Assembly (NCBI GenBank): GCA_040752395.1
Contig: JBFMHD010000084.1
Location: 1-10,894, forward strand
Reading direction: 5' to 3'
Length of the DNA stretch: 10,894 nt
Source: JBFMHD01 sp040752395 [NCBI: Candidatus Hydrogenedentota bacterium]
Lineage (GTDB): Bacteria; JBFMHD01
The notes beneath the pieces are model-generated. The model did not search any database and was not told where the DNA came from. It was given only the letters and a program-made list of their open reading frames with translations. Both the position numbers and the translations under genes were made by a program. Of the stretch, positions 1 through 10,894 are shown one piece after another; the first letter of the stretch is position 1; the number at the start of each line of letters is the position of its first letter.

Positions 1-75
1 GTTTGCATACCATTTGGAATCCCAGTCTTCAATAATTTTCAGTCTCTGAATTTTTGGTGGCACCTTCTGACCCAT
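1..75 (-). CDS. rpsC: 30S ribosomal protein S3, N-terminal fragment (cut by window edge)
   Basis: Reading the minus strand from the ATG at 75 gives 25 codons beginning [10 protein letters not shown] and continuing to the motif DWDSKWYAN. The MGQKV start and the W-D-S-(K/R)-W-Y-A motif are the hallmark of S3, which binds 16S rRNA in the small-subunit head near the mRNA entry channel. S3 follows L22 in S10 operons, and rplV is indeed the preceding gene. The start has a strong Shine-Dalgarno AGAGGAG six bases upstream, supplied by a copy of repeat module A. Residues 6-13 (PPKIQRLK) differ from the usual NPxGFRLG-like text, which is odd for this protein. Unusually, 475 bp of repeat DNA separate it from rplV, where the two genes are normally almost contiguous. 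The identity is secure; the rest of the gene lies outside the window. Confidence 0.9.
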
Positions 76-80
76 TAGAC

Positions 81-115
81 TCTCCTCTGAAAAATATTCT
101 AACTCTAATAATATC
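81..115 (-). promoter_or_regulatory. Module A copy 1: leader and ribosome-binding site of rpsC
   Basis: On the minus strand this about 33-bp module reads TATTATTAGAGTTAG, then TTTTTCAGAGGAG, and is followed after six bases by the rpsC ATG. The purine-rich end is a near-perfect Shine-Dalgarno sequence. Eight other copies with the same polarity lie at 187-219, 464-498, 5571-5602, 5691-5722, 9208-9240, 9398-9430, 9868-9900 and 10767-10800. Those next to a start codon give the gene its translation signal. Whether the TATTAT text also acts as a -10 element cannot be settled, because no consistent -35 lies at the right distance. Confidence 0.65.
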
Positions 116-290
116 AAATAGAAGCAAGAGGCAAGAAGCAAGATAACGGAAAGAAAGATAACGAAAGAGGCAAGAAAACGTCTGAATCTCCTCTGAAAAA
201 CTTCGCAACCCTAATAATTTGGGCTACAGGCTACAGGTTACGGACTACAGCCGGCTGGAGCCAAAAGCCCAGAGCCTGCTGAAAAGTCTT

Positions 291-347
291 GAGTCCTGAG
301 TCTTGAGTCTTGAGTCCTGTTTTGACTCACGACTCACGACTCTTTTT
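291..347 (+). repeat. GAGTC/GACTC hairpin array (module D, copy 1), terminator-like on the plus strand
   Basis: Four GAGTC units spaced by two bases are followed by CTGTTTT and then three GACTC units spaced by AC. Together they can fold into a long interrupted hairpin with 5-bp helices separated by 2x2 internal loops. On the plus strand the stem is followed at once by TTTTT, the layout of an intrinsic terminator. On the minus strand, the one carrying the genes, the T-run is missing. It would therefore stop antisense rather than sense transcription, if it acts at all. Copies at 5794-5843 and 3839-3866 have 4+2 and 1+2 arms, which indicates unit-wise expansion and contraction. Confidence 0.6.
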
Positions 348-364
348 ATATCATCTTTAGTTTT

Positions 365-460
365 TCATCCTTTGTGTAGAGCGCAAAAACCCAAAAATGC
401 AATAACCCAATAACCCAAGAACCCAATAACACAATAGTGTAGAGCGCAACCCGCGCTCAT
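365..460 (-). other. Repeat-borne mini-ORF, 31 codons, doubtful as a gene
   Basis: A minus-strand ATG at 460 lies five bases after the GAAGGAG Shine-Dalgarno of module A copy 3. It opens a frame beginning MSAGCALHY and ending FCALHKG before a TGA at 365-367. A second repeat copy (9360-9392) has the same layout with a 10-residue product, MSAICVLHKG. The two differ by exactly 21 codons, so the insertion keeps the frame and the ends (MSA, C-x-LH-KG). The inserted part is made of 8-11-bp AACCCAATA words, which stay open in this frame in other copies too. It could be a leader peptide, or simply word-repeat DNA that happens to lack stops. No family is recognised. Confidence 0.25.
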
Positions 461-550
461 GTTGACTCCTTCGAAAAACTTCGCGACCCTAATAATTTTA
501 CGAAGTAAGAAGTATCAGAAAAAATTTTAATCTTTCAATCTTTGAATCTC

Positions 551-892
551 TCAACTCTCTTCATTTGTAACAACAATGGTTATATGCGAGGTGTAAACTC
601 TTATGCGGTTAGCCATCCCACGTGACCTCGGTACAACCCGCTTTAATATAAATCCCCTGTCTGCATAAGCTTGCTTTATATATAAATCCTTTTCATCAAG
701 TCCTGCATCATCCTGTTTAGCATTGTTAACCGCGGATTTTAAAAGCTTTAATATTATCTTAGCAGCCCGTTTATTACTAAATTTTAACTGATCCATAACT
801 TCTCTAACGTTCTTCTTACGAATCTCATTTAAAATGAGCATCACTTTACTCGGTGTTATTCGTTCAAATCGCTTTATAGCTCTCGCTTCCAT
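551..892 (-). CDS. rplV: 50S ribosomal protein L22
   Basis: This 113-residue protein begins MEARAIKRFERITPSK and ends with the L22 signature region GFILKRVVPRSRGMANRIRVYTSHITIVV (written here only as a guide to residues 80-108). L22 is an early-assembling large-subunit protein whose beta-hairpin, the arginine-rich segment near residues 83-97, lines the peptide exit tunnel and meets macrolides. Its length matches the family (about 110). The ATG lies two bases after the rpsS stop, so translation is probably coupled. Downstream, where rpsC should follow within a few bases, there is instead a 475-bp repeat block. The identification rests on the RSRGMAN-type core and on position in the S10 operon, and it is secure. 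Confidence 0.97.
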   Translation of the reverse strand: MEARAIKRFERITPSKVMLILNEIRKKNVREVMDQLKFSNKRAAKIILKLLKSAVNNAKQDDAGLDEKDLYIKQAYADRGFILKRVVPRSRGMANRIRVYTSHITIVVTNEES

Positions 893-894
893 AA

Positions 895-1191
895 TTATTC
901 CTCTTTACCCTTTTCACCCTCACCCTCTGCTTTCCTACCACCATGCATTTTAAAAATTCTTGTTGGTGAAAATTCGCCTAATTTATGACCAACCATATTC
1001 TCCGTAACATATACCGGTATAAACTTTCTACCATTATATACAAGAAATGTTATACCTACAAATTCAGGTAAAATAGTTGTTCGCCGTGACCATGTCTTTA
1101 TTACACCCTTAATCTTACCCTCTTTTAAATCCTTAACTTTTTTTAAAATATATTCATCAACAAATGGCCCTTTCTTAACTGACCTCGGCAT
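895..1191 (-). CDS. rpsS: 30S ribosomal protein S19
   Basis: The 98-residue product starts [18 protein letters not shown] and contains [16 protein letters not shown] (about residues 31-46) and [17 protein letters not shown] (about residues 62-78), all diagnostic of S19. S19 forms a dimer with S13 in the head of the small subunit and contacts tRNA and bridge B1a. The basic, glutamate-rich tail ([12 protein letters not shown]) is slightly longer than in E. coli. The gene lies five bases after the rplB stop and two bases before rplV, typical S10-operon spacing that suggests coupled translation. There is no sign of damage. Confidence 0.98.
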
Positions 1192-1196
1192 CTAAA

Positions 1197-2024
1197 CTAC
1201 TTCCTCCTTTTTAAAATCATTTTATTTGATGGTTTAGATTTTTTTCTTGTTTTTAATCCTTTGGTATGCCAGCCCCACGGCGAAACCGGATGCGGATTCC
1301 CTTGAGGCGATTTCCCTTCGCCCCCACCATGCGGATGGTCAACAGGATTCATTGCCACACCACGTACCGTTGGCCTTATACCCATATGCCTTGACCTGCC
1401 CGCTTTCCCAATTGATATGTTCTCATGCTCTTCATTACCTACCATCCCTATCGTTGCTCTGCATTCAAGTTTAACCATTCTCACCTCGCCTGATGGTAGT
1501 TTCAAATGCGCATACCCTCCTTCCTTAGCCATAAGCTGTGTATAATTCCCGGCAGAACGACAAAGCTGGCCACCCTTCCCTCTTGTTAATTCTATGTTAT
1601 GAATAATAGTACCCACAGGTATCTTTTCGATTGGTAAACAATTACCTATCTTAATTTCAGCATTAGACCCATTCATTACTTCATCCCCAACATTTAACCC
1701 TTTCGGTGATAATATATATCTTTTTTCTCCATCCTTATAGACAAGAAGCGCAATCCTTGCTGACCTTGCTGGGTCATACTCTATTGAGACAACTTTTGCA
1801 GGGATACTATCTTTCAACCTCTTAAAATCAATAATCCGATATTTTCGTTTTGCTCCGCCACCACGATGCCGAACCGTTATCCTTCCCATATTGTTCCGAC
1901 CACCTGTTCTTTTCAATGGTATAACTAAAGATTTTTCAGGCTCGGTTCTTGTTATCTCTGAAAAATCAGAGACAGTCATCTGCCTCTGTGCTTGCGTAGT
2001 CGGTCTGTAAGCCCTGATACCCAT
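1197..2024 (-). CDS. rplB: 50S ribosomal protein L2
   Basis: The 275-residue length fits the family (about 273-277). The N-terminal OB-like half carries [19 protein letters not shown] (about residues 42-60). The C-terminal SH3-like half carries [24 protein letters not shown] (about residues 214-237), including the conserved histidine (H229 in E. coli) near the peptidyl-transferase centre. The lysine-rich tail ends KMILKRRK. L2 binds domain IV of 23S rRNA and is needed for subunit joining and peptidyl-transferase activity. The ATG is two bases after the rplW stop, so it is in the tightly packed part of the operon. All conserved features are intact. Confidence 0.98.
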
Positions 2025-2026
2025 TT

Positions 2027-2311
2027 CTATGCTCCCTCAAATAGCTTAATTGTCTGACCTTCCTTCAGTTTAATTACAGCCTTTCTTCTTTCTCGCGTAT
2101 ATCCTGCCCTACCCCTTAATCTCCGCACTTTAGCTGGTTTTTTGATAATATTGATTTTTCTTGCATCAACTAAAAATAACTTTTTTATAGCCTCTTTAAT
2201 CTGGCCTTTGGTCGCTTGTGAATGTACATAAAACGTATATATACTTTTCTCTCTGTTAATAACTGCTTTCTCTGTCTGTACCGGTTCAATAATAATATCT
2301 TCAGGAAACAT
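2027..2311 (-). CDS. rplW: 50S ribosomal protein L23
   Basis: This 94-residue protein begins [16 protein letters not shown] and contains the L23 pattern [18 protein letters not shown] (about residues 25-42) followed by the basic loop [21 protein letters not shown] (about 58-78). L23 sits at the exit of the nascent-peptide tunnel and is the docking point for trigger factor and the signal recognition particle. Its length is close to the usual 95-100. It starts two bases after the rplD stop and ends two bases before rplB, so it is in the uninterrupted rplD-rplW-rplB-rpsS-rplV segment. The call is confident from motif and context. Confidence 0.96.
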
Positions 2312-2313
2312 AT

Positions 2314-2964
2314 CTACCCTCTTTTTTCAAGACTTAAAAAACTCTTTAACCTCTGATTAAACTCCAAAAAAGAATCATTCGTAAATAAAATGTCTTCAGT
2401 ATCCAGAATATTATAAGCATTTACATCAGAATATCTCATTATTGCGACACCTGGTATATTTCTGCCTGATTTTATAATTTTTTCATCATTGTTTTGTTCG
2501 ATGATAAGAACCTTGTCTCTCAGACCCATTTTTTCTAAAAGTAAAACCATCTTCTTTGTTTGCGGTTTCTCAAATTCAAAATTTTCTATAATATGGAACG
2601 CTTGTTCTTTTGCTTTAATTCTTGACGCTCCTAATAATGCAAGCCTTTTCATTCTTATATTAATCTTCTGTCTCCAATTCCTTGGTTTCGGACCAAAAAC
2701 AGTCCCACCCCCTAGCCATAAAGGACTTCTTATAGAACTATGTCTTGCTCTACCTGTGCCCTTCTGACGCCACGGTTTACGACCACCACCACGAACCTCA
2801 GCCCGTGTCTTTGTTTTTACCGTGCCCTTTCTCTGGTTAGCAAGATAAGCTGTTATAACTTGATGTAAAAGAAATTCATAAATTTTACCCTGATATATCT
2901 CTGAACTTAATTCTTCTTTACCAGTAAGTTCACCGTCTTTTGTAAACCTCTCAGCTGTTAACAT
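2314..2964 (-). CDS. rplD: 50S ribosomal protein L4
   Basis: From the ATG at 2964 the product is 216 residues (E. coli L4 has 201). It carries the tunnel-lining loop KTRAEVRGGGRKPWRQKGTGRARH (about residues 50-73) and the following SPLWxGGGxxFGPxPR-like text, the signature of L4. L4 binds 23S rRNA domain I and helps form the exit-tunnel constriction; in gammaproteobacteria it also represses its own operon. An in-frame GTG at 3027 would add 21 residues, but they are translated largely from a repeat word (AAGAAGCAAG) and lack a ribosome-binding site. The chosen ATG has GGAG six bases upstream and gives the family-typical start. Confidence 0.95.
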   Translation of the reverse strand: MLTAERFTKDGELTGKEELSSEIYQGKIYEFLLHQVITAYLANQRKGTVKTKTRAEVRGGGRKPWRQKGTGRARHSSIRSPLWLGGGTVFGPKPRNWRQKINIRMKRLALLGASRIKAKEQAFHIIENFEFEKPQTKKMVLLLEKMGLRDKVLIIEQNNDEKIIKSGRNIPGVAIMRYSDVNAYNILDTEDILFTNDSFLEFNQRLKSFLSLEKRG

Positions 2965-3033
2965 CTTTCTCTCCAATAGGCAAAATACCAGATCTTGCTT
3001 CTTGCCTCTGATAACAATAATGACCACGGCTGC
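2965..3033 (-). repeat. Short repeat word in the rplC-rplD gap
   Basis: This 69-bp gap contains TCTTGCTTCTTGCCTCT at 2993-3009. That is the reverse complement of the AGAGGCAAGAAGCAAGA text in module B of the large repeat blocks. Module B here is therefore in the opposite orientation to its copies at 115-186 and 5602-5690. Just after it, on the minus strand, comes the GGAG ribosome-binding site of rplD. It is probably a remnant or seed of the larger repeat family. Confidence 0.5.
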
Positions 3034-3645
3034 TTATGCTGTTGTTATCTGTAAATAGCTTCCATTCGCTCCTGGTACAGCACCTTTTACAAATATAAGA
3101 TTTTCTTCTTTGTTTATATCTACAATCTTCAGATTTCTAACCGTTACTCGTTCACAGCCATAATGTCCAGGGCCACGTGTCCCTTTTCTTGAATGCTGCG
3201 GAAATCTTGTTCCTCTTGAGCCAACACCTCTAAATGACTTAGCGGTCCCATGACTCGCTCCAAACCCACTAAAACCATATCGTTTCACCGCACCTGTAAA
3301 CCCCCGACCTTTTGTCAGTCCACTAATATTTACCATCTCTCCTATGTTAAAAATATCTACTTTTATCTGGTCACCTACATTGTAATTTGTATCAAATTTT
3401 AGCTCTTTTAATACTCTGCAAACAGCAACATTTACTTTTTTGAATATCCCTGATTCTGCATTGTTCAAAGACTTCTCTTTACAAGTGTCAAACCCAAGTT
3501 GCAGTGTTTCATACTTATCATTCCCATATTTAATCTTTTTAATAAGATAACATGGACCTGCTTCTATAACAGTAACAGGTATAACTTTACCCTGTTCGTC
3601 AAATAATTGTGTCATCCCCAATTTTTTTCCAATTAATCCCTTCAT
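3034..3645 (-). CDS. rplC: 50S ribosomal protein L3
   Basis: Starting at the ATG at 3645 gives 203 residues beginning MKGLIGKKLGMTQLFDEQGK, the standard L3 opening. The GLTKGRGFTGAVKRYGFSG segment (about residues 109-127) and the C-terminal RGPGHYGCERVTVRNLKIV followed by KGAVPGANG are typical L3. L3 is one of the two assembly-initiating large-subunit proteins, and its central extension reaches toward the peptidyl-transferase centre. An ATG six codons upstream (MERSDK) is possible, but it has no Shine-Dalgarno and departs from the family start. The chosen start has GGAG about twelve bases upstream, a rather long spacing. A 363-bp repeat-filled gap separates it from rpsJ, which is abnormal for this operon. 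Confidence 0.95.
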   Translation of the reverse strand: MKGLIGKKLGMTQLFDEQGKVIPVTVIEAGPCYLIKKIKYGNDKYETLQLGFDTCKEKSLNNAESGIFKKVNVAVCRVLKELKFDTNYNVGDQIKVDIFNIGEMVNISGLTKGRGFTGAVKRYGFSGFGASHGTAKSFRGVGSRGTRFPQHSRKGTRGPGHYGCERVTVRNLKIVDINKEENLIFVKGAVPGANGSYLQITTA

Positions 3646-3776
3646 CTTGTCGCTTCGCTCCATTGCAAATTGTAAATTGCAAATTTATTTGCCTACTTTG
3701 GGTCTTGTGACCCTCACTACGTCATTTTTCCATTCATTTTGCAATCTCCAATTTCCAATCTTCAATTTTCAATTGT

Positions 3777-3828
3777 GCCTCTTGCTTCTTGCTTCTTTCG
3801 TCATCTTTCTTTCCGTTATCTTGCCTCT
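3777..3828 (+). repeat. Module B copy in inverted orientation
   Basis: The reverse complement of this stretch contains CAAGATAACGGAAAGAAAG and ACGAAAGAAGCAAG. It matches module B at 5602-5680 over roughly 36 bases with about one mismatch by eye. The neighbouring module D (3839-3866) keeps its usual orientation. Module B has therefore been flipped relative to D in this block, which shows that the modules are separate units. Confidence 0.65.
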
Positions 3829-3838
3829 GAGAAGTCTT

Positions 3839-3866
3839 GAGTCTTGTTTTGACTCACGACTCTTTT
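3839..3866 (+). repeat. GAGTC/GACTC hairpin (module D, copy 3), minimal form
   Basis: A single GAGTC arm, the TTGTTTT loop and two GACTC arms separated by AC are followed by TTTT on the plus strand. This is the shortest of three copies of module D. It shares the flanking text GAAAAGTCTT or GAGAAGTCTT on the left and ATATCATCT on the right with the longer copies. Confidence 0.55.
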
Positions 3867-3988
3867 CATATCATCTCATATAAAAAGTTAAAAGTTAAAA
3901 GTAAAGAAAGCGAAAATATACACTTCCTTGCCGTATCTTTGAATCTCTGTGCCTTTGTACCTCTAACTACAATTTCCAATATACAATT

Positions 3989-4007
3989 CGACATACGCAG
4001 TATGTCG
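3989..4007 (-). other. Perfect hairpin directly after the rpsJ stop
   Basis: CGACATAC-GCA-GTATGTCG forms a perfect 8-bp stem with a three-base loop, beginning two bases after the rpsJ stop codon on the minus strand. It is followed by GAATTGTATATTGG, with no U-run, so it does not look like an intrinsic terminator. In a polycistronic message it could mark a processing site or protect a 3' end. This role is inference from position only. Confidence 0.45.
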
Positions 4008-4008
4008 C

Positions 4009-4317
4009 CTAACTCTTTATCTCTACATCTACACCAGCAGGTAATTCGAGTTTCATCAACGCATCAATCGTATCCGGCGAAGGATTATAAATATCAATCA
4101 ACCTTTTGTGGGTTCTTATCTCAAATTGTTCTCTTGACTTTATGTTTACATGTGGAGACCGAAGCACAGTCCATCTATTTACATTAGTCGGTAATGGTAT
4201 TGGACCTGATACTTCTGCCCCCTTTCTCTGCGCAGTATTAACAATCTTCTTTGCAGACTGGTCAAGTATCCTGTGGTCAAACGATTTTAGTTTAATCCGT
4301 ATCTTCTGTTTAGCCAT
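4009..4317 (-). CDS. rpsJ: 30S ribosomal protein S10
   Basis: From the ATG at 4317 the protein is 102 residues, beginning [20 protein letters not shown], the near-invariant S10 start. It contains [12 protein letters not shown] and the [20 protein letters not shown] region (about residues 53-73). S10 sits in the small-subunit head and doubles as the transcription antitermination factor NusE. A TTG at 4362 would extend it by 15 residues back into tuf, but those residues are not S10-like and are rejected. A GAGG sequence lies about eleven bases before the chosen ATG. tuf ends 37 bases upstream, the ancestral tuf-rpsJ adjacency. A perfect hairpin and then 363 bp of spacer follow. Confidence 0.97.
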
Positions 4318-4354
4318 AATAAATTGAACCTCAAAGCCTGCCTTAAGTTTGGCA

Positions 4355-5563
4355 CTACTCAATCACCTTTGTAACAACACCTGCACCAATCGTCTTACCA
4401 CCCTCTCTAACCGCAAACCGCACACCCTCCTCCATCGCTATGTTGCTTATTAACTCAACCTCTATCTCGGTGTTGTCCCCTGGCACCACCATCTCTACAC
4501 CCTCTTTTAACTTTATGGTCCCGGTTACATCCGTTGTCCTGAAATAAAACTGCGGCCGATACCCGCTGAAAAATGGCTTGTGCCTGCCACCCTCCTCCTT
4601 CTTTAATACATATACCTCTGATAAAAATCGCTTGTGAGGCGTTATCGTCTTCGGAACCGCTACTACCTGTCCACGCTCCACCTCGTCCTTACCTATACCC
4701 CTTAATAATAACCCTATGTTATCACCTGCTACACCCTCATCTAATAACTTCCGAAACATCTCTACACCTGTCACTACCGTCTCCTGCGTCGGCCTTATCC
4801 CAACTATCTCTACCTTGTCTCCTACCTTTATCTTGCCTCGCTCCACTCGACCCGTCACTACTGTCCCTCGACCCGTTATCGAAAATACATCCTCGATCGA
4901 CATTAAAAATGGCTTCTCTATGTCTCGCTTTGGCACAGGAATGTATCTGTCTAATGCATCGATTAACTCTATTACACATTTCCCAGCCTCATTATTCGGC
5001 TCACCCTCTCGCATCGCTTTTAATGCATCACCACGTATAAATGGTATCTCATCACCCGGAAACTTATACTGCTTTAATAAATCCCTGACCTCCATCTCTA
5101 CTAAATCTATTAACTCAGGGTCATCTACTAAATCTATCTTGTTCAAGAATACTACGATGTAGGGCACACCTACTTGCCGGGCTAATAATATATGTTCGCG
5201 TGTCTGCGGCATCGGACCATCAGCTGCACTCACTACAAGTATCGCACCGTCCATCTGCGCAGCACCGGTTATCATATTCTTTACATAATCCGCATGGCCT
5301 GGACAATCTATATGTGCGTAATGACGATTTGCACTCTGATACTCAACATGCGAGATCGCTATGGTCAATATCTTGGTCTCATCCCGCCTGCCCTGTTTCT
5401 CGCTCGCTTTTGCTACCTCATCATAACTCACCTCTTTTGCTAAACCCTGGCGTGCTAAAACCCGCGTCATCGCTGCGGTGAGCGTTGTCTTACCATGATC
5501 AACATGGCCTATTGTCCCAACATTAACATGCGGCTTGGTTCGCTCGAATTTTGGTTTACTCAT
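4355..5563 (-). CDS. tuf: Translation elongation factor Tu
   Basis: The 402-residue product is full length for EF-Tu, the GTPase that delivers aminoacyl-tRNA to the ribosomal A site. The G1 motif GHVDHGKT is at 19-26, DCPGH at 86-90 with catalytic His90, and NKID at 141-144. Domain II has [13 protein letters not shown] and domain III has the ending [16 protein letters not shown]. The switch-I region (47-72) is about five residues longer than in E. coli and reads [11 protein letters not shown] instead of a RGITI-type text, a form I associate with PVC bacteria. The G5 position reads DAL (179-181) rather than the usual SAL. The ATG has GGAGGAG about five bases upstream, at the end of module A. 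tRNA-Thr lies upstream and rpsJ immediately downstream. Confidence 0.99.
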
Positions 5564-5570
5564 AGTTCTC

Positions 5571-5602
5571 CTCCTCTGAAAAACATTGTAACTATAATAA
5601 TA
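5571..5602 (-). promoter_or_regulatory. Module A copy 4: ribosome-binding site of tuf
   Basis: On the minus strand the module reads GATATTATTATAGTTACAAT and ends TTTTTCAGAGGAG. It is extended by GAG to give GGAGGAG about five bases before the tuf ATG. It is the same element that serves rpsC, the debranching enzyme and the DUF35-type gene. A -10-like TATTAT or TATAGT is visible, but no convincing -35 sits 16-18 bases away, so only the ribosome-binding role is called. Confidence 0.6.
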
Positions 5603-5793
5603 TCAAGTAGAAGCAAGAGGCAAGAAGCAAGATAACGGAAAGAAAGATAACGAAAGAAGCAAGAGGCAAGAGGCAAGAAAACGTCTGAATCTCCTCTGAA
5701 AAACGCTGTAACTCTAATAATTTGGGCTACAGGCTACAGGCTACGGACTACAGCCGGCTGGAGCCCGAAGCCCGGAGCCTGGTGAAAAGTCTT

Positions 5794-5843
5794 GAGTCTC
5801 GAGTCTCGAGTCTCGAGTCCTGTTTTGACTCACGACTCTTTTT
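5794..5843 (+). repeat. GAGTC/GACTC hairpin array (module D, copy 2)
   Basis: Four GAGTC arms, separated mostly by TC so that CTCGAG palindromes arise, are followed by CTGTTTT and two GACTC arms, then TTTTT on the plus strand. The arm numbers (4+2) differ from the copies at 291-347 (4+3) and 3839-3866 (1+2), consistent with a variable-number 7-bp repeat that keeps its hairpin-forming ability. Confidence 0.6.
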
Positions 5844-5908
5844 ATATCATCTTTAGTTTTTCATCCTTTGTGTAGAGCGCAAAAACGCAATAACCCAATA
5901 ACGCATAT

Positions 5909-5981
5909 AGCCCACGGGCGGATTCGAACCGCCGACCACCTCCTTACCAAGGAGGTGCTCTACCGCCTGAGCCACATGGGC
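5909..5981 (-). tRNA. tRNA-Thr(GGT)
   Basis: The minus strand folds as a complete 73-base cloverleaf. The acceptor stem pairs GCCCATG with CGTGGGC, including one U-G pair. The D arm is GCTC-AGGCGGTA-GAGC. The anticodon arm pairs CCTCC with GGAGG around loop TTGGTAA, with anticodon GGT. The variable loop is 5 bases (TGGTC), and the T arm pairs GGCGG with CCGCC around TTCGAAT. The discriminator base is T and CCA is not encoded. The anticodon reads ACC and ACU threonine codons. A tRNA-Thr directly upstream of tuf is a familiar bacterial arrangement (thrT-tufB in E. coli), which supports co-transcription despite the repeat-filled spacer. Confidence 0.97.
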
Positions 5982-6347
5982 AAATATACTTTTATCTTCA
6001 TCATAGTTAATTCAAACTGTCAAGCAAAAATCGTTTTCCTTGGTATCCTCCCGGTCTTTGGTAGAGTCCTTAAGTTCGGTGTTTTTGTTTTCGGTTATAG
6101 GTTATAGGTTTTAGATTCTTATATCATGAGATCTGTGCAATTCGCGCAGAATTTTAACTCAACTACATTGCGTCAAAAGTCCAGATATAGAAGTTTGGTT
6201 GGTGGCACTGCCACCTTAGGTTATCGGTAAACCGAACATCGAACATCGAAAACCTAACACCGAAGCTAAAACCCAAAACCGATAACCGAATATCTTGCTT
6301 CTTAGATTTTGCTTCTATTATATCACCTGTAACTGATGAGATAAGTA
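5982..6347. other. Gene-free region between the MBL-fold gene and tRNA-Thr, with inverted word repeats
   Basis: No credible gene is seen in these 366 bp. It contains TTCGGTG/TCGGTTATAGG words on the plus strand (6075-6113) and the same kind of text inverted (6251-6290). There is a perfect GGTGGC-ACT-GCCACC hairpin (6201-6215), a long inverted repeat GGTTATCGGT/ACCGATAACC (6219-6228 with 6278-6287), ATCGAACATCGAAC direct repeats (about 6232-6250), and an AAGAAGCAAGAT word (6292-6303, on the minus strand). The tRNA promoter should lie here. A TTGACA occurs on the minus strand at 6018-6023, but no good -10 is at the right spacing. A terminator for the MBL-fold gene is not clear. Confidence 0.6.
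6201..6287. repeat. Hairpin and inverted repeat of GGTTATCGGT type
   Basis: A 6-bp perfect stem-loop (GGTGGC-ACT-GCCACC, 6201-6215) is followed by two 10-bp arms that are exact reverse complements of each other (6219-6228 and 6278-6287), enclosing 49 bases of AACATCGAAC-like words. Neither hairpin is followed by a T-run on either strand. This word set differs from modules A-E, so it is a second repeat vocabulary in the same genome. Confidence 0.5.
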
Positions 6348-7244
6348 TCATAGGGTAAGTTTAAGATCTTCGTATGCTGGTAGTATTCTTAATGATGAAT
6401 GTGTTTTATTTTTAATTTTTTTAGCATATCTCATAATATCATCAATCTTTCTATCCGGTGATTCGGGTGCATAATGAAACGGTATCAAAACCTTAACTTT
6501 ATTACGTTGGCAGAGTTTTATACCTTCCTGAACTATGCTATGACCCCATGTCTTTTTTCCGAAACCTTCTTTTTCGCAGGCTTGAGGATCATATTCCTGA
6601 TGGGTATACTGGGTATCATAAACAAGTGCGTCAGCACCCCTGCATAATTTATCAAGCTTCTTTTCCCATTCTTTGCTATGCTCAGTATCAGTTGCATATA
6701 CAAAAATTTTACCTTTTCTATTTTCTATTCTATAACCAAAAGTCGGATCAGGATGATTTATATATATGGGTAATATTTTATATTCCCGGATTCTTAGTAT
6801 TTTTTCTTCTTTTAATTCAATCATTTTTATTTCTGACTGTAAATTAGAAAAGTTAAGAGGGAAAAATGGTTTTGTAAAAATCTTTGGCAGCTCCTTTTTA
6901 AGATTTTTACAGCCATAAATATTGATTCTGTTACCTTTTATATAGATAGGCTTAAAAAATGGTAGCCCAATAATATGATCCCAATGTAAATGTCCAAGAA
7001 ATAAATCAATCACAGCCCTACCAGTATTAAAATCAGTTTTTCTTAATTGTTTACCATCGGGATTAACAGCACATAATTTATTTCCTAATAGCCGTATGCC
7101 GCTGCCGGCATCAAGAATAAAAGCATAATCTTTGTCTTCAACCAGAGAGACGCAACTTGTATTGCCGCCGTATTTATGATAATTAATCTTTCTTGTTGAG
7201 GGTGAAGGTAATGATCCTCTGACACCATAAAATCTAATATCCAT
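6348..7244 (-). CDS. MBL-fold metallo-hydrolase (PhnP/COG1235-like)
   Basis: This 298-residue protein opens MDIRFYGVRGSLPSPS, followed by KYGGNTSCV (about 24-32) and LDAGSG (about 44-49), a pattern of metallo-beta-lactamase-fold phosphodiesterase-like hydrolases. The dinuclear metal site is visible as H85-x-H87-x-D89-H90 (HLHWDH), a downstream NHPD (His164), TDTEH (Asp186, His189), WGHS (His235) and a late PFHYAPESPD (His257). There is no signal peptide, so it is cytoplasmic. The substrate cannot be read from sequence; relatives include cyclic phosphodiesterases and proteins paired with response regulators. Its ATG overlaps the stop of the debranching-enzyme gene (TAATG), which indicates coupled translation. 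All metal ligands appear intact. Confidence 0.88.
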   Translation of the reverse strand: MDIRFYGVRGSLPSPSTRKINYHKYGGNTSCVSLVEDKDYAFILDAGSGIRLLGNKLCAVNPDGKQLRKTDFNTGRAVIDLFLGHLHWDHIIGLPFFKPIYIKGNRINIYGCKNLKKELPKIFTKPFFPLNFSNLQSEIKMIELKEEKILRIREYKILPIYINHPDPTFGYRIENRKGKIFVYATDTEHSKEWEKKLDKLCRGADALVYDTQYTHQEYDPQACEKEGFGKKTWGHSIVQEGIKLCQRNKVKVLIPFHYAPESPDRKIDDIMRYAKKIKNKTHSSLRILPAYEDLKLTL

Positions 7245-9202
7245 TATATTTCTATCCCTTCTTCAACTATTATTCTTGTGATTTCAGCGACGCTCCAGGC
7301 CTGGGCAAAACATCCTCTGCATAGATGCGGGCTATCCCCATCAAATATTTCAGAGATGTTGCTGATACAACCATCAGAAAGATGTGTATCTAAAAAATTT
7401 TTTAAATAAATTTTTACTTCTTCTCTGGTTTTACTGTCTCTACTATAAACATTAAGATAGGCAGTAAAATATGGTCCTAACAAATATGGCCAGACTGTAC
7501 CCTGATGATAAGCCATATCACGTGCCTTTAAATCACCTGTGTAAACTCCTTTATACCTTTTATCATCAGGTGAGAGGGTTCGAACCCCAAACGGGGTTAA
7601 AAGTTTCTCTTTGATTACTTGAAGAATTAAACGCGCCTTTTCTCCAAAAATAAGCTGAAAAGGAAGACTCATAGTGAATAATTGATTGGGTCTTAAACTT
7701 GAATCCTTCTTATTCTTGTCTATAACATCAAATAAATATTTGCCATCAGAAAACCAGAAAAGATCAATAAACCTCTCTTCAATTTTTTTAATATATCTTT
7801 GAGTAAGTATCTTTGTTTTATTATCATTGAACTTATCTGCAAATAATTCAACTATCTTTAATAAATTATACCATAAAGCCTGAATTTCTACGGGTTTACC
7901 TCTTCTTGGTGTTACTACAATATTCTCAACTTTAGCATCCATCCATGTAAGTTGAATACCTTCTTCGCCTGCATATAACATCCCATCCTCGTCATCAACC
8001 TTTATAGAATGTCTCGTCCCTTTAATATGATTCTCAATGATATTTAAAAGTTTCTCATAAACTTCATCTTTTATAAATTCTTCATCACCTGTATATCTAT
8101 AGTAAAAATATATAGAATTAGCCAGCCATAAAGTGCCATCAACTGTATTATAAAGAGGTTCTGTCTGGGCTTCAGGAAACACATTCGGTATCATACCTTT
8201 AGATAGATATTTCAGAAAAGATTTTATTATACTTTTAGCGATATCAAATCTCTTGGTTACAAGAGCTAAACCGGGCAATGAAATCATAGTATCCCGGCCC
8301 CAGTCAGTAAACCATGGATAACCTGCTATAACACTCCAGCCATCATCACGTCTTACAAAAAAAGAATCACAAGCAGAAAATAAAACAGACTTAGTTAAAC
8401 TCTCTCCGCCTTTTCTAAATTCGGCGTCATACCTTTGCTGTATAATATTATCTGCCTGCTCAGTAGTTAAAATTGGATCTATGTTATCAGTTGCGATCAA
8501 AGTAATTGTTGATGCTGGATTTAAATTTATCTCAAAAACCCCGGGAGAGAAGAGGTCTTCATTATAAGGCTCTCCTTTTTCTTTATCTATTGAGTATAAA
8601 AAATTATAATACCATAAAGGTTCATCAATAAATTCTGAATTATCAAGTTTAATATATAAACAGAAATTATCACGATTTATTTTTAAGGTTCCATCATTAA
8701 ATTTATTGGTATATTTTATGTTCTGGTTTGATTTTTGAACTATATGATGATTTCTTATAGATAATAATGGTCTTAATCTGAGTTTTATATTTTTAGTACC
8801 TTCTAAGTATTTATAAGAGAGGTAAATGGTATTACTATCAGGTAACATACCGAGCTTTTTTTCTAATCTATAATCTCTGACTCTGTAAACCCATTTAACA
8901 AAAGCATCGAGACTAAATTTTTCAAGGTATTTATAACCATCGGGATATACGATACCATCTGAATATATGTTAGAGTCTATAGCGACCCTCTCGCCGGCTA
9001 AATCTAAAACTTCTTCAATCTTATTTAAAAATACAAACCTTTCCACAGGTTGTCTTGTAACCGCTACTAATAAACCATGGTATCTTCTCATAAGGATACC
9101 AAAAATATTACACACAGAATAACCACCAATCCTGTTGGTTATTAAATATTCTTTATTCAGATTTTTTTTAAAATCAAAAAGCTTTTCTCCAGATAATTCC
9201 AC
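7244..9202 (-). CDS. Glycogen debranching enzyme (amylo-alpha-1,6-glucosidase, GH133 type)
   Basis: The 652-residue protein matches bacterial/archaeal debranching enzymes that hydrolyse alpha-1,6 branch points of glycogen-like glucans in the cytoplasm. The N-terminal domain has NRIGGYSVCNIFG and RRYHGLLVA (about residues 22-50). The (alpha/alpha)6-barrel has WFTDWGRDTMISLPGL (about 295-310), TWMDAKV (about 416-422), GKPVEIQALWYN (about 430-441), YHQGTVWPY (about 562-570), EIFDGDSPH (about 616-624) and RGCFAQAWSVAE (about 627-638). The start is set at the GTG at 9202, five bases after GAAGGAG. An ATG 17 codons upstream only translates the module A/B repeat ([14 protein letters not shown]) and overlaps that ribosome-binding site. 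The gene is coupled to the MBL-fold gene. Length and motifs are complete. Confidence 0.93.
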   Translation of the reverse strand: MELSGEKLFDFKKNLNKEYLITNRIGGYSVCNIFGILMRRYHGLLVAVTRQPVERFVFLNKIEEVLDLAGERVAIDSNIYSDGIVYPDGYKYLEKFSLDAFVKWVYRVRDYRLEKKLGMLPDSNTIYLSYKYLEGTKNIKLRLRPLLSIRNHHIVQKSNQNIKYTNKFNDGTLKINRDNFCLYIKLDNSEFIDEPLWYYNFLYSIDKEKGEPYNEDLFSPGVFEINLNPASTITLIATDNIDPILTTEQADNIIQQRYDAEFRKGGESLTKSVLFSACDSFFVRRDDGWSVIAGYPWFTDWGRDTMISLPGLALVTKRFDIAKSIIKSFLKYLSKGMIPNVFPEAQTEPLYNTVDGTLWLANSIYFYYRYTGDEEFIKDEVYEKLLNIIENHIKGTRHSIKVDDEDGMLYAGEEGIQLTWMDAKVENIVVTPRRGKPVEIQALWYNLLKIVELFADKFNDNKTKILTQRYIKKIEERFIDLFWFSDGKYLFDVIDKNKKDSSLRPNQLFTMSLPFQLIFGEKARLILQVIKEKLLTPFGVRTLSPDDKRYKGVYTGDLKARDMAYHQGTVWPYLLGPYFTAYLNVYSRDSKTREEVKIYLKNFLDTHLSDGCISNISEIFDGDSPHLCRGCFAQAWSVAEITRIIVEEGIEI

Positions 9203-9207
9203 TTGGT

Positions 9208-9240
9208 CTCCTTCGAAAAACGCTGTAACTATAATAATAT
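9208..9240 (-). promoter_or_regulatory. Module A copy 6: ribosome-binding site of the debranching-enzyme gene
   Basis: On the minus strand the module ends GCGTTTTTCGAAGGAG, five bases (ACCAA) before the GTG start at 9202. This decides the start codon, because the upstream ATG reads through the module itself and has no ribosome-binding site of its own. The GAAGGAG variant of the ending is shared with copies 3 and 7, which precede the repeat-borne mini-ORFs. Confidence 0.65.
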
Positions 9241-9359
9241 CAAGTAGAAGCAAGATAACGGAAGAAGTGAGAGGTATCAGGACAGGCTACAGGCTACGGA
9301 CTACAGCCGGCTGGAGCCAAAAGCCCGGAGCCTGAAGCCAACATATCATCTTTAGTTTT

Positions 9360-9392
9360 TCATCCTTTGTGTAGAACGCAAATCGCGCTCAT
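9360..9392 (-). other. Repeat-borne mini-ORF, 10 codons, doubtful as a gene
   Basis: A minus-strand ATG at 9392 follows GAAGGAG of module A copy 7 by five bases and encodes MSAICVLHKG before TGA. It is the short counterpart of the 31-codon frame at 365-460, with the same start, ending and ribosome-binding site. The copies in the tuf leader and near 10000 keep the ending frame (CALHK-G or -V) but lack this ATG. It may be a leader peptide or an accident of repeat text. Confidence 0.25.
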
Positions 9393-9469
9393 GACGACTC
9401 CTTCGAAAAACTTCGCGACCCTAATAATTTCACGAACTTCTCGCTTCTTCTCCACCTACAACTGAAGCA

Positions 9470-9862
9470 TTACAAGCCATCGTCTACACGCTGTTTCCCT
9501 GCTGGCTTGAATTTATTTATTATAAACTTAAACAATGGGGTAAATTTTTTCTTTAGGATTATTAGCCACCTATACTCTTCACAATAGAATGTTTCTTCAT
9601 CCTGCATAACAATTACTTTAGCACCGATCTTAGTTAAATTTTTAGAACCGCGACAAAGAAGTTTCAAGTTATCAGATAAACCAACCATAACAAGATATAA
9701 AGGTGCTGGAAACCCCTCTGGCGGCATCTCTACAACAGTATAACTTAAAATATTGCCGATACCATCAACATTATCTTGGGCTGTGGGTTTGCCACAATCA
9801 ATACATTTATTCACATCAGGCATATCAATCTTACCACATTCGCATTTTGAAACCTTGAGCAT
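9470..9862 (-). CDS. Zinc-ribbon/OB-fold protein of the DUF35 type
   Basis: This 130-residue protein has an N-terminal rubredoxin-like zinc ribbon with Cys7-x-Cys9 and Cys20-x2-Cys23. An OB-fold follows, with GIGNILSYTVVEMPPEGFPAP (split here around residues 34-54) and a closing IGAKVIV strand (about 79-85). This two-part layout is that of DUF35 proteins, which usually partner thiolase- or HMG-CoA-synthase-like enzymes as scaffolds or acyl-CoA-binding subunits. No thiolase is in this window, so the partner is unknown. The C-terminal 45 residues are basic and hydrophobic and match no family I recognise. The ATG lies five bases after AGAGGAG of module A copy 8. The family is fairly certain; the function is not. 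Confidence 0.75.
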   Translation of the reverse strand: MLKVSKCECGKIDMPDVNKCIDCGKPTAQDNVDGIGNILSYTVVEMPPEGFPAPLYLVMVGLSDNLKLLCRGSKNLTKIGAKVIVMQDEETFYCEEYRWLIILKKKFTPLFKFIINKFKPAGKQRVDDGL

Positions 9863-9867
9863 CGTGG

Positions 9868-9900
9868 CTCCTCTGAAAAACGCTGTAACTCTAATAATTC
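9868..9900 (-). promoter_or_regulatory. Module A copy 8: ribosome-binding site of the DUF35-type gene
   Basis: The minus strand reads AATTATTAGAGTTACAGCG and then TTTTTCAGAGGAG, followed by CCACG and the ATG at 9862. This copy joins directly to module C without module B. The start-proximal position of module A is therefore kept even when the rest of the leader is rearranged. Confidence 0.65.
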
Positions 9901-10080
9901 GGGGTACAGGCTACGGGCTACGGACTACAGCCGGCTGGAGACAAAAGCCCGGAGCCTGAAGCCAACATATCATCTTTAGTTTTTCATACCTTGTGTAGAG
10001 CGCAAAAACGCAATAACCCAATAACCCAATAACCCAATAGTTGAGTACTCCTCTCATAATAGGGTCGGACCTTTAGTTAT

Positions 10081-10107
10081 GAAAATGGGGACGGTTATGA
10101 TTTTTAC
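10081..10107 (+). repeat. REP-like 27-bp repeat, copy 1 (downstream of the ORF6N gene)
   Basis: GAAAATGGGGACGGTTATGA and the following TTTTTAC match the sequence at 10635-10661 at 23 of 27 positions in the same orientation. The core GGGACGGTT with flanking A- and T-runs resembles extragenic repeats that in other genomes accompany Y1-type (IS200-like) transposases. No transposase is present in this window. Confidence 0.55.
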
Positions 10108-10142
10108 CCTGCAACAAATTAATCGAATCAAATCCTGACTCA

Positions 10143-10709
10143 TCAAAACCCTATCTTTTTAACTGGTTTGTTATCTGGCTCTATCAATTCTTTTAAAGCC
10201 TGAAAAATAATCTCTATTTTCTCATCATGCCCCTTAACCTGTCTCTCCAGTTCCTTAATACTTTCAAAAAGCGCTTTATAAGATGACAGCATCTCTCTCA
10301 TCTTTATAAATGCTCTTACAACAAAAATACTCATCTCAATCGCTCTGGGAGAATTAAGTACTGAAGCAAGCATAACTGCACCGTGTTCTGTAAAAACATA
10401 GGGCATAGAACCGCCAAAATATTTCCTTGATGGTATCGCAAATTGCGATACCACTAATTCCAGTTCCTGATTATTAAGTCTAAACATAAAATCATTTGGA
10501 AATCTCTTTATGTTGCGTTTCACCTGTTCACGCAAACGGATCGGCTTTACTCCATAAATAAACGCAAGATCTTTATCCAGTATTACTTTTTGATTGCGAA
10601 TCGTAAAAATTCTATTCACAATTCTTTCGATGGTGAAAACAGGGACGGTTCTGGTTTTTACGTTATTCAGTTTTCCCCTTCGGTGTCTAAAGCGAAACCT
10701 GTTAAACAA
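10143..10709 (-). CDS. ORF6N-domain protein
   Basis: The 188-residue protein has an ORF6N domain at about residues 27-115: FTIRNQKVILDKDLAFIYGV, then LREQVKRNIKRFPNDFMFRL, and PYVFTEHGAVMLASVLNS. A charged helical, probably coiled-coil tail (about 133-176) ends in the common KKIGF motif. ORF6N domains occur in phage antirepressor-like and putative DNA-binding proteins, and the protein is widespread as an orphan in environmental bacteria. Its function is not established. The start is TTG at 10709, with AAGGAG seven bases upstream and no better in-frame codon before the domain. Residues about 16-26 are encoded by a REP-like repeat (10635-10661), so the first 26 residues may be an acquired extension. 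Confidence 0.85.
   Translation of the reverse strand: MFNRFRFRHRRGKLNNVKTRTVPVFTIERIVNRIFTIRNQKVILDKDLAFIYGVKPIRLREQVKRNIKRFPNDFMFRLNNQELELVVSQFAIPSRKYFGGSMPYVFTEHGAVMLASVLNSPRAIEMSIFVVRAFIKMREMLSSYKALFESIKELERQVKGHDEKIEIIFQALKELIEPDNKPVKKIGF
10635..10661 (+). repeat. REP-like 27-bp repeat, copy 2 (inside the 5' end of the ORF6N gene)
   Basis: GAAAACAGGGACGGTTCTGG with following TTTTTAC matches 10081-10107 at 23 of 27 bases. On the minus strand it encodes the KTRTVPVF segment just before the conserved ORF6N domain. The two copies, in direct orientation and 554 bp apart, bracket nearly all of the gene. Confidence 0.55.
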
Positions 10710-10894
10710 TCAAAAACTCCTTGCCTGTAAAATTAATCAATCGTTTACTTCGATTTATATATATCACTCCTCTAAAAAACATTGTAACTATAATGATATC
10801 AAGTAGAAGCAAGAAGCAAGATAACGGAAGAAGTGAGAGGTATCAGGACAGGCTACAGGCTACGGACTACAGCCGGCTGGAGCCCGAAGCCCGG
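10710..10894 (-). repeat. Repeat block upstream of the ORF6N gene, cut by window edge (A-B-C)
   Basis: Module A (10767-10800), a short module B ending GAAGTGAGAGGTATCAGG (about 10797-10847) and module C with CAGCCGGCTG at 10870-10879 (10849-10894, running off the edge) form the left part of another leader. Here module A's AGAGGAG is about 60 bases from the ORF6N start rather than adjacent. The interval 10710-10766 carries its own AAGGAG, so the coupling to a start codon seen elsewhere is broken. No gene is visible. Confidence 0.7.

Follow-up and report, generated by a model that had tools for sequence, protein, structure and literature searches.

To our knowledge, bacterial dispersed repeats mostly adjoin genes without supplying a start signal, or they supply promoters. 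Mobile promoters are defined as sequences of 50-100 nt with at least 80% identity that lie upstream of unrelated genes, and a 2012 study by Matus-Garcia, Nijveen and van Passel reportedly dealt with putative mobile promoters. The same term appears in the excerpted text of PMC8049555. In marine Beggiatoaceae, TAACTGA heptamers are oriented, intergenic and placed a few nucleotides from the starts of unrelated genes, also inside ribosomal-protein operons; a Shine-Dalgarno sequence accompanies them in no more than about 10% of the intergenic regions that contain them (excerpts of PMC4679880). The BOX elements of Streptococcus pneumoniae are modular dispersed intergenic repeats with a variable number of modules that can form expressed open reading frames (ORFs); the excerpted account also gives them terminal inverted repeats, target duplications and an over-representation between convergent genes (PMC3049150). 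These three are the nearest described kinds to the repeat analyzed here, which lies on contig JBFMHD010000084.1 (positions 1 to 10,894) of the Candidatus Hydrogenedentota bacterium JBFMHD01 sp040752395 (assembly GCA_040752395.1); the window denotes this whole stretch of 10,894 nt. What sets it apart from them is that the Shine-Dalgarno sequence itself is the outer edge of the repeat.

The repeat is built around a unit of 31 bp, hereafter unit A, of which the window holds nine copies, all intergenic and free of indels (Table 1). The initial annotation had also counted nine, with starts that are correct within 2 bases; its length of about 33 bp comes down to 31 bp of conserved sequence. The minus-strand consensus is ATTATTAKRGTYRSRRNRTTTTTYRRAGGAG, with a single C at column 3 in one copy. 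A pattern derived from the same nine copies matches 9 sites in the window, compared with a mean of 0.01 in 200 window shuffles, none of which had nine. With a position weight matrix the copies score 39.7-46.6 bits, and no other site on the two strands exceeds 2.0 bits; this gap is widened by training on the same nine copies, and the scan found no decayed copy in the window. As first described, every copy ends in AGAGGAG or GAAGGAG and every copy has the polarity of the genes (9/9). The shared orientation is the weaker evidence, since every gene found lies on one strand and the copies occupy only five gaps.

The conservation of unit A is uneven and stops abruptly at its ends. The 13 variable columns of the 31 are clustered (9 runs where 16.1 would be expected by chance; permutation P 0.006), GT, TTTTT and AGGAG are invariant in 9/9 copies, and ATTATTA is kept in 8/9, the ninth having one C. 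Seven distinct haplotypes occur among the nine copies, which fall into three types by their flanks, A1, A2 and A3. Because identity between copies of different flank type is 0.80 within the unit but falls to 0.33 over the preceding 30 nt and to 0.23 over the following 24 nt, unit A is sharply bounded on both sides.

The 3' boundary is in register with start codons. The distance from the final G of AGGAG to the start codon is 5 nt for a glycogen debranching enzyme (GDE) gene, 5 nt for a gene whose DUF35/OB-fold assignment has a Pfam score below the curated cut-off (23.1 versus 27.1 bits), 6 nt for rpsC and 7 nt for tuf. The spacing of five to six bases first given for these four genes thus holds for all but tuf, and the two copies said to precede mini-ORFs, both of type A1, indeed lie 5 nt from an ATG. 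Altogether, a Shine-Dalgarno-type AGGAG stands 5-7 nt before a start at 6/9 copies (four genes and two mini-ORFs), inside the 4-10 nt taken as limits. When the copies were shuffled within their gaps with orientation kept, four matches at 5-7 nt arose in 0/100,000 and 1/100,000 trials of two runs; without GDE, at least three matches arose in 2/100,000, and without GDE and DUF35, at least two in 123/100,000. These shuffles treat related copies as independent. Because copies within one gap are related, the fairer count takes the five gene-proximal copies, four of which are in register (binomial P 6e-8). The rpsC and tuf starts are backed by family profiles aligned from residue 1, and the ORF of the DUF35 gene offers no start codon before the ATG behind the copy.

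Unit A recurs at up to three positions within a larger modular repeat that occupies five intergenic regions, and five of five such composites precede a same-direction gene. The leaders of rpsC and tuf are 87% identical over 339 columns, the composites of GDE and DUF35 95% over 101, and the tuf leader and the 10767 region 94.5% over 55 nt. Towards the gene, the rpsC leader is ordered as A1, a mini-ORF with an octamer array, AAAGGATGAAAAACTAAAGATGATAT, GAGTCTT-type heptamers, a GC-rich palindrome, A2, CTTGCTT-type heptamers and A3. In local alignments of at least 28 nt with an E value of 1e-3 or better, homology between composites at gene-proximal copies ends at AGGAG or 1 nt beyond, with the GDE-ORF6N pair stopping 8 nt short; at internal copies it continues past the unit, as expected inside a repeat. 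Duplication of leaders, one of the two origins first suggested, fits this end of homology at the Shine-Dalgarno sequence. The other, insertion next to start codons, does not describe the copies as nine separate events: they represent three positional types within a composite repeat, and three of the nine have no start codon at the right spacing. An assembly artefact is unlikely, as the composites differ from one another and the ribosomal gene order of the window is normal, and a CRISPR-like array was rejected for the irregular spacing.

Compared with described repeats, the composites resemble mobile promoters in being homologous non-coding DNA upstream of unrelated genes of one genome, of a sort thought to spread and rewire expression, and the tuf-10767 and rpsC-tuf pairs reach the length and identity by which those are defined. 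Unlike in mobile promoters, the shared DNA ends here at a Shine-Dalgarno sequence, a 31-bp module is present up to three times per leader, and a promoter is only putative. The likeness to TAACTGA repeats, as far as the excerpts describe them, is that of an oriented repeat near the starts of unrelated genes, ribosomal operons included; those are tandem 7-mers, whereas unit A is a single 31-bp unit carrying a Shine-Dalgarno sequence, with heptamer arrays elsewhere in the composite. BOX, in the excerpted account, is likewise a modular dispersed intergenic repeat, but at the four composite edges viewed here by eye neither inverted ends nor a target duplication was recognised, and the composites stand before same-direction genes. 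Repetitive extragenic palindromes (REP/REPIN) and the heptanucleotide short tandemly repeated repetitive (STRR) sequences of cyanobacteria recall the composite with its palindromic module and heptamer arrays, whereas unit A itself is neither palindromic nor tandem. Literature searches of partial coverage found no description of such an element.

On balance, and from one 10.9-kb window, we lean towards a dispersed leader repeat of modular build, with a start cassette at its 3' end and reshuffling by recombination at unit A. The intergenic repeat would probably have spread by recombination or transposition-like copying and become the leader of four genes. Unit A would be a ready-made translation start, composed of an AT-rich box (ATTATTA..GT), a short variable spacer, a U-rich TTTTTC and AGGAG; with the repeat ending at AGGAG 5-7 nt before the start, translation of the downstream gene would rely on the Shine-Dalgarno sequence that the repeat itself brings. 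In A3, a preceding TTGAT creates an extended -10-like box, TGnTATNAT, that may start transcription and give a leader of about 25 nt. Finally, as a leader can hold the same 31 bp as many as three times, recombination between copies could delete or swap the modules between them. The notion of a portable ribosome-binding cassette, already advanced in the initial annotation, keeps its footing in the register with four unrelated starts and in the homology that stops there; it does not extend to the three of nine copies without a start codon. We regard a ribosome-binding role of unit A as likely and a promoter role of A3 as plausible.

The sites within unit A show patterns that fit exchange between copies. 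All four allele combinations are seen in 14/36 pairs of informative columns, and the copy at 9208 is a mosaic, A3-like on the left, A2-like in the middle and A1-like at the end. Exchange between copies would explain both, as well as the DUF35 leader, which resembles a full composite that has lost everything between A2 and A3. Same-direction tandem copies with different modules between them and sharp edges on both sides could also be read as recombination sites of the attC or dif type, with the mini-ORF modules as cassettes. We find this highly improbable: by eye the unit has no symmetrical arms, three copies folded alone form no stable structure, no integrase was recognised among the window proteins scanned, and the register with start codons would be left unexplained.

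A promoter-like box is confined to one flank type. An extended -10-like box, TGATATNAT, overlaps the left edge of unit A in all four A3 copies, and TGnTANNNT is found at that place in 4/4 A3 copies and 0/5 others; it occurs at 8/2273 intergenic minus-strand positions, four of which are the A3 copies. A standard -35/-10 promoter was rejected, with a consensus scan at chance level and no common -35 by eye, and so was an antisense promoter on the plus strand, for which no suitable -35 spacing was seen by eye. Folded alone, three of the nine copies reach 0, 0 and -1.9 kcal/mol and are not more stable than shuffled sequences, and such a weak predicted fold would suit an open ribosome-binding region. 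A hairpin or riboswitch was rejected, as these three copies have no stable fold and no Rfam family matches at gathering score; at these scores Rfam found only the tRNA in the window, with no 16S rRNA and no described structured leader. Stretches with the palindromic module have fold z-scores of -1.1, -2.4, -1.4 and -4.2. In rpsC (69-112, TATTAGA/TCTAATG) and tuf (5558-5601, TATAGTT/AACTATG), a 7-nt stretch of the AT-rich box is the complement of sequence around the start codon. The unit A sequences of these two genes differ in step with that complementarity, and the folds are no better than shuffles.

However, several results weigh against the reading that we favor. Behind the copies at 188, 5691 and 10767 (3/9) there is no ATG, GTG or TTG at 3-9 nt, and the start of GDE is unsettled, as a TTG at 9253, upstream of the copy, also opens the ORF and the GTG was favoured partly on account of its spacing to unit A. 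The two internal A2 copies lack a start at this distance and the A1 mini-ORF is found in two copies only, for which reason conserved leader peptides were rejected. Together with their first codons, three copies fold at -4.7, -5.6 and -6.1 kcal/mol (z -0.3, -0.2 and -0.9), and the AT-rich box pairs with the start region in the minimum-energy fold of rpsC and the centroid fold of tuf; the start site is thus not plainly open, because it is partly paired to unit A. If A3 starts transcription, this pairing would not matter, as the box would not be part of the RNA. Neither the A1 nor the A2 copies, among them the one before DUF35, have the extended -10, and because the four A3 flanks are related by descent they amount to one observation. 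The consensus promoter scan gave 33 sites versus 32.4 in shuffles, with one at a unit A copy (5571), and no -35 common to the three upstream flank types was seen by eye. As to exchange, columns 25 and 26 covary and contribute to 12 of the 14 four-allele pairs, and recurrent mutation could produce the same patterns as recombination. Nor were inverted ends or a target duplication recognised by eye at the four composite edges viewed.

Some of these points bear on whether unit A has any function. A passive dispersed repeat, made of MITE- or BOX-like debris and heptamer microsatellites and by chance having AGGAG in its end, could have entered by short homology at resident Shine-Dalgarno sequences, with the register as a by-product and unit A itself functionless; we hold this possible, though rather unlikely. 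The composite is full of simple repeats, the rpsC-tuf alignment has gaps of 7 and 14 nt, as expected from heptamer slippage, and three copies have no start codon behind them. In the same pair, the only long one available for the comparison, unit A is identical at 54/62 positions and the rest at 242/263; because conservation of unit A does not exceed that of its surroundings, strong selection on it is disfavoured and recent copying of the whole favoured, which also speaks against our preferred reading. Like debris interrupts the S10 operon between rpsJ and rplC (3646-4008), where no unit A was found. What a passive repeat accounts for poorly is the clustering of the variable columns with its fixed boxes, the 5-nt spacing to an ATG even at the internal A1 copies, and the extended -10-like box of A3, which would lie at a sensible distance from the start.

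Searches for relatives bear on another alternative, that unit A is the species' standard strong promoter and Shine-Dalgarno region, found before many genes and kept alike by common constraint, and that only the surrounding repeats are mobile. A relaxed unit A pattern had one site among the contigs of GTDB species genomes (two stretches, from overlapping contig ends), in an Epulopiscium metagenome-assembled genome (MAG), where a TATAAT-like box, a short leader and GGAGGAG precede the ATG of an open frame. No second place with three or fewer mismatches to the pattern was found in that genome. This site shows both the specificity of the pattern and the possibility for such an arrangement to arise as an ordinary promoter-Shine-Dalgarno region. 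Of the four genes, tuf and rpsC are also normally highly expressed. We judge this alternative improbable: common constraint would have to keep 31 bp free of indels, copies lie in composites with no gene behind them, one composite sits within the S10 operon, in which a promoter of its own would be unusual, and the other genes of the window have different sequences upstream. In IMG/VR, two unit A patterns and the palindromic module gave 0 stretches, and a stricter core of the unit was found in 0/34 loci, including 32 Tuf loci from IMG/VR. A plasmid search gave no match, and a phage search returned two records covering 15% of the query in the heptamer stretch only, one annotated as neuO heptanucleotide repeats. 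Octamer and heptamer debris of similar aspect may also be present in Omnitrophota and WOR-3 genomes.

The features of the window are collected in Table 1. Its minus-strand genes are tRNA-Thr, tuf, rpsJ, rplC, rplD, rplW, rplB, rpsS, rplV and the first 25 codons of rpsC, and further genes encode a metallo-beta-lactamase-fold protein, GDE, the DUF35/OB-fold protein and an ORF6N-domain protein. A 28-bp direct repeat (86%) at 10080-10107 and 10634-10661 lies on both sides of the ORF6N-domain gene. This gene has no clear standard start, the assumed one (10661) being more than 100 nt from the copy at 10767, and may be an insertion that displaced the gene once behind that copy. Just upstream of the DUF35 composite, minus-strand CTATTATGAGAGGAG at 10048-10062 resembles a second Shine-Dalgarno sequence; AGGAG is present there at 1/4 composite edges viewed. 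The debris between rpsJ and rplC holds an inverted copy of the CTTGCTTCT module (3776-3828 versus 5623-5675, 94%), and a 29-nt inverted repeat (86%, 6090-6118 versus 6262-6290) lies upstream of the tRNA-Thr gene. The intergenic DNA is dotted with numerous short arrays of 7- or 8-nt units that differ in sequence.

Table 1. Copies of unit A, composite leaders and associated repeats in the window.
Feature	Position	Strand	Remark
Unit A copy, type A3	82-112	-	Shine-Dalgarno end 6 nt before rpsC ATG
Unit A copy, type A2, internal	188-218	-	Without start codon at 3-9 nt
Unit A copy, type A1	466-496	-	5 nt before mini-ORF ATG
Unit A copy, type A3	5571-5601	-	Shine-Dalgarno end 7 nt before tuf ATG
Unit A copy, type A2, internal	5691-5721	-	Without start codon at 3-9 nt
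Unit A copy, type A3	9208-9238	-	Shine-Dalgarno end 5 nt before GTG of GDE gene
Unit A copy, type A1	9398-9428	-	5 nt before mini-ORF ATG
Unit A copy, type A2	9868-9898	-	Shine-Dalgarno end 5 nt before ATG of DUF35/OB-fold gene
Unit A copy, type A3	10767-10797	-	Without start codon at 3-9 nt; ORF6N-domain gene is next
Mini-ORF, 31 aa, MSAGCALHYCVIGFLGYWVIAFLGFCALHKG	365..460	-	After A1 at 466; putative coding
Mini-ORF, 10 aa, MSAICVLHKG	9360..9392	-	After A1 at 9398; putative coding
Composite leader of rpsC (A1, mini-ORF, octamers/heptamers, palindrome, A2, heptamers, A3)	82..504	-	S10 operon, between rplV and rpsC
Composite leader of tuf (without A1)	5571..5902	-	Between tRNA-Thr and tuf
Composite leader of GDE (A1, mini-ORF, palindrome, A3; without A2)	9208..9436	-	
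Composite leader of DUF35 gene (octamers, palindrome, A2; without A1, A3)	9868..10041	-	
Partial composite (palindrome, A3)	10767..10894	-	Ends at window edge
Palindromic module	5730..5781; also 227-278, 9283-9334, 9907-9958, in part 10849-10891	.	
7-/8-nt arrays, part 1	120-143, 222-250, 285-342, 384-436, 3662-3685, 3738-3797, 3883-3902, 5609-5679, 5725-5753		
7-/8-nt arrays, part 2	5788-5819, 5880-5914, 6093-6114, 6233-6250, 9282-9306, 9900-9928, 10003-10039, 10805-10821, 10848-10872		

Unit A could also be the constant 3' end shared by a family of insertion modules aimed at Shine-Dalgarno sites; each event would put a different body with this 31-bp end precisely at AGGAG, provide the gene with a fresh in-register start region and build up the tandem of A1, A2 and A3. 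We give this a small chance; if true, the mobile element would owe its spread to the gene-start cassettes that it supplies, not to the avoidance of genes. Under the modular leader repeat that we favor, a repeat carrying a Shine-Dalgarno sequence in register with the essential genes rpsC and tuf would show translation start regions to be open to copying and exchange in modular form, and would provide a directly testable case of leader shuffling.

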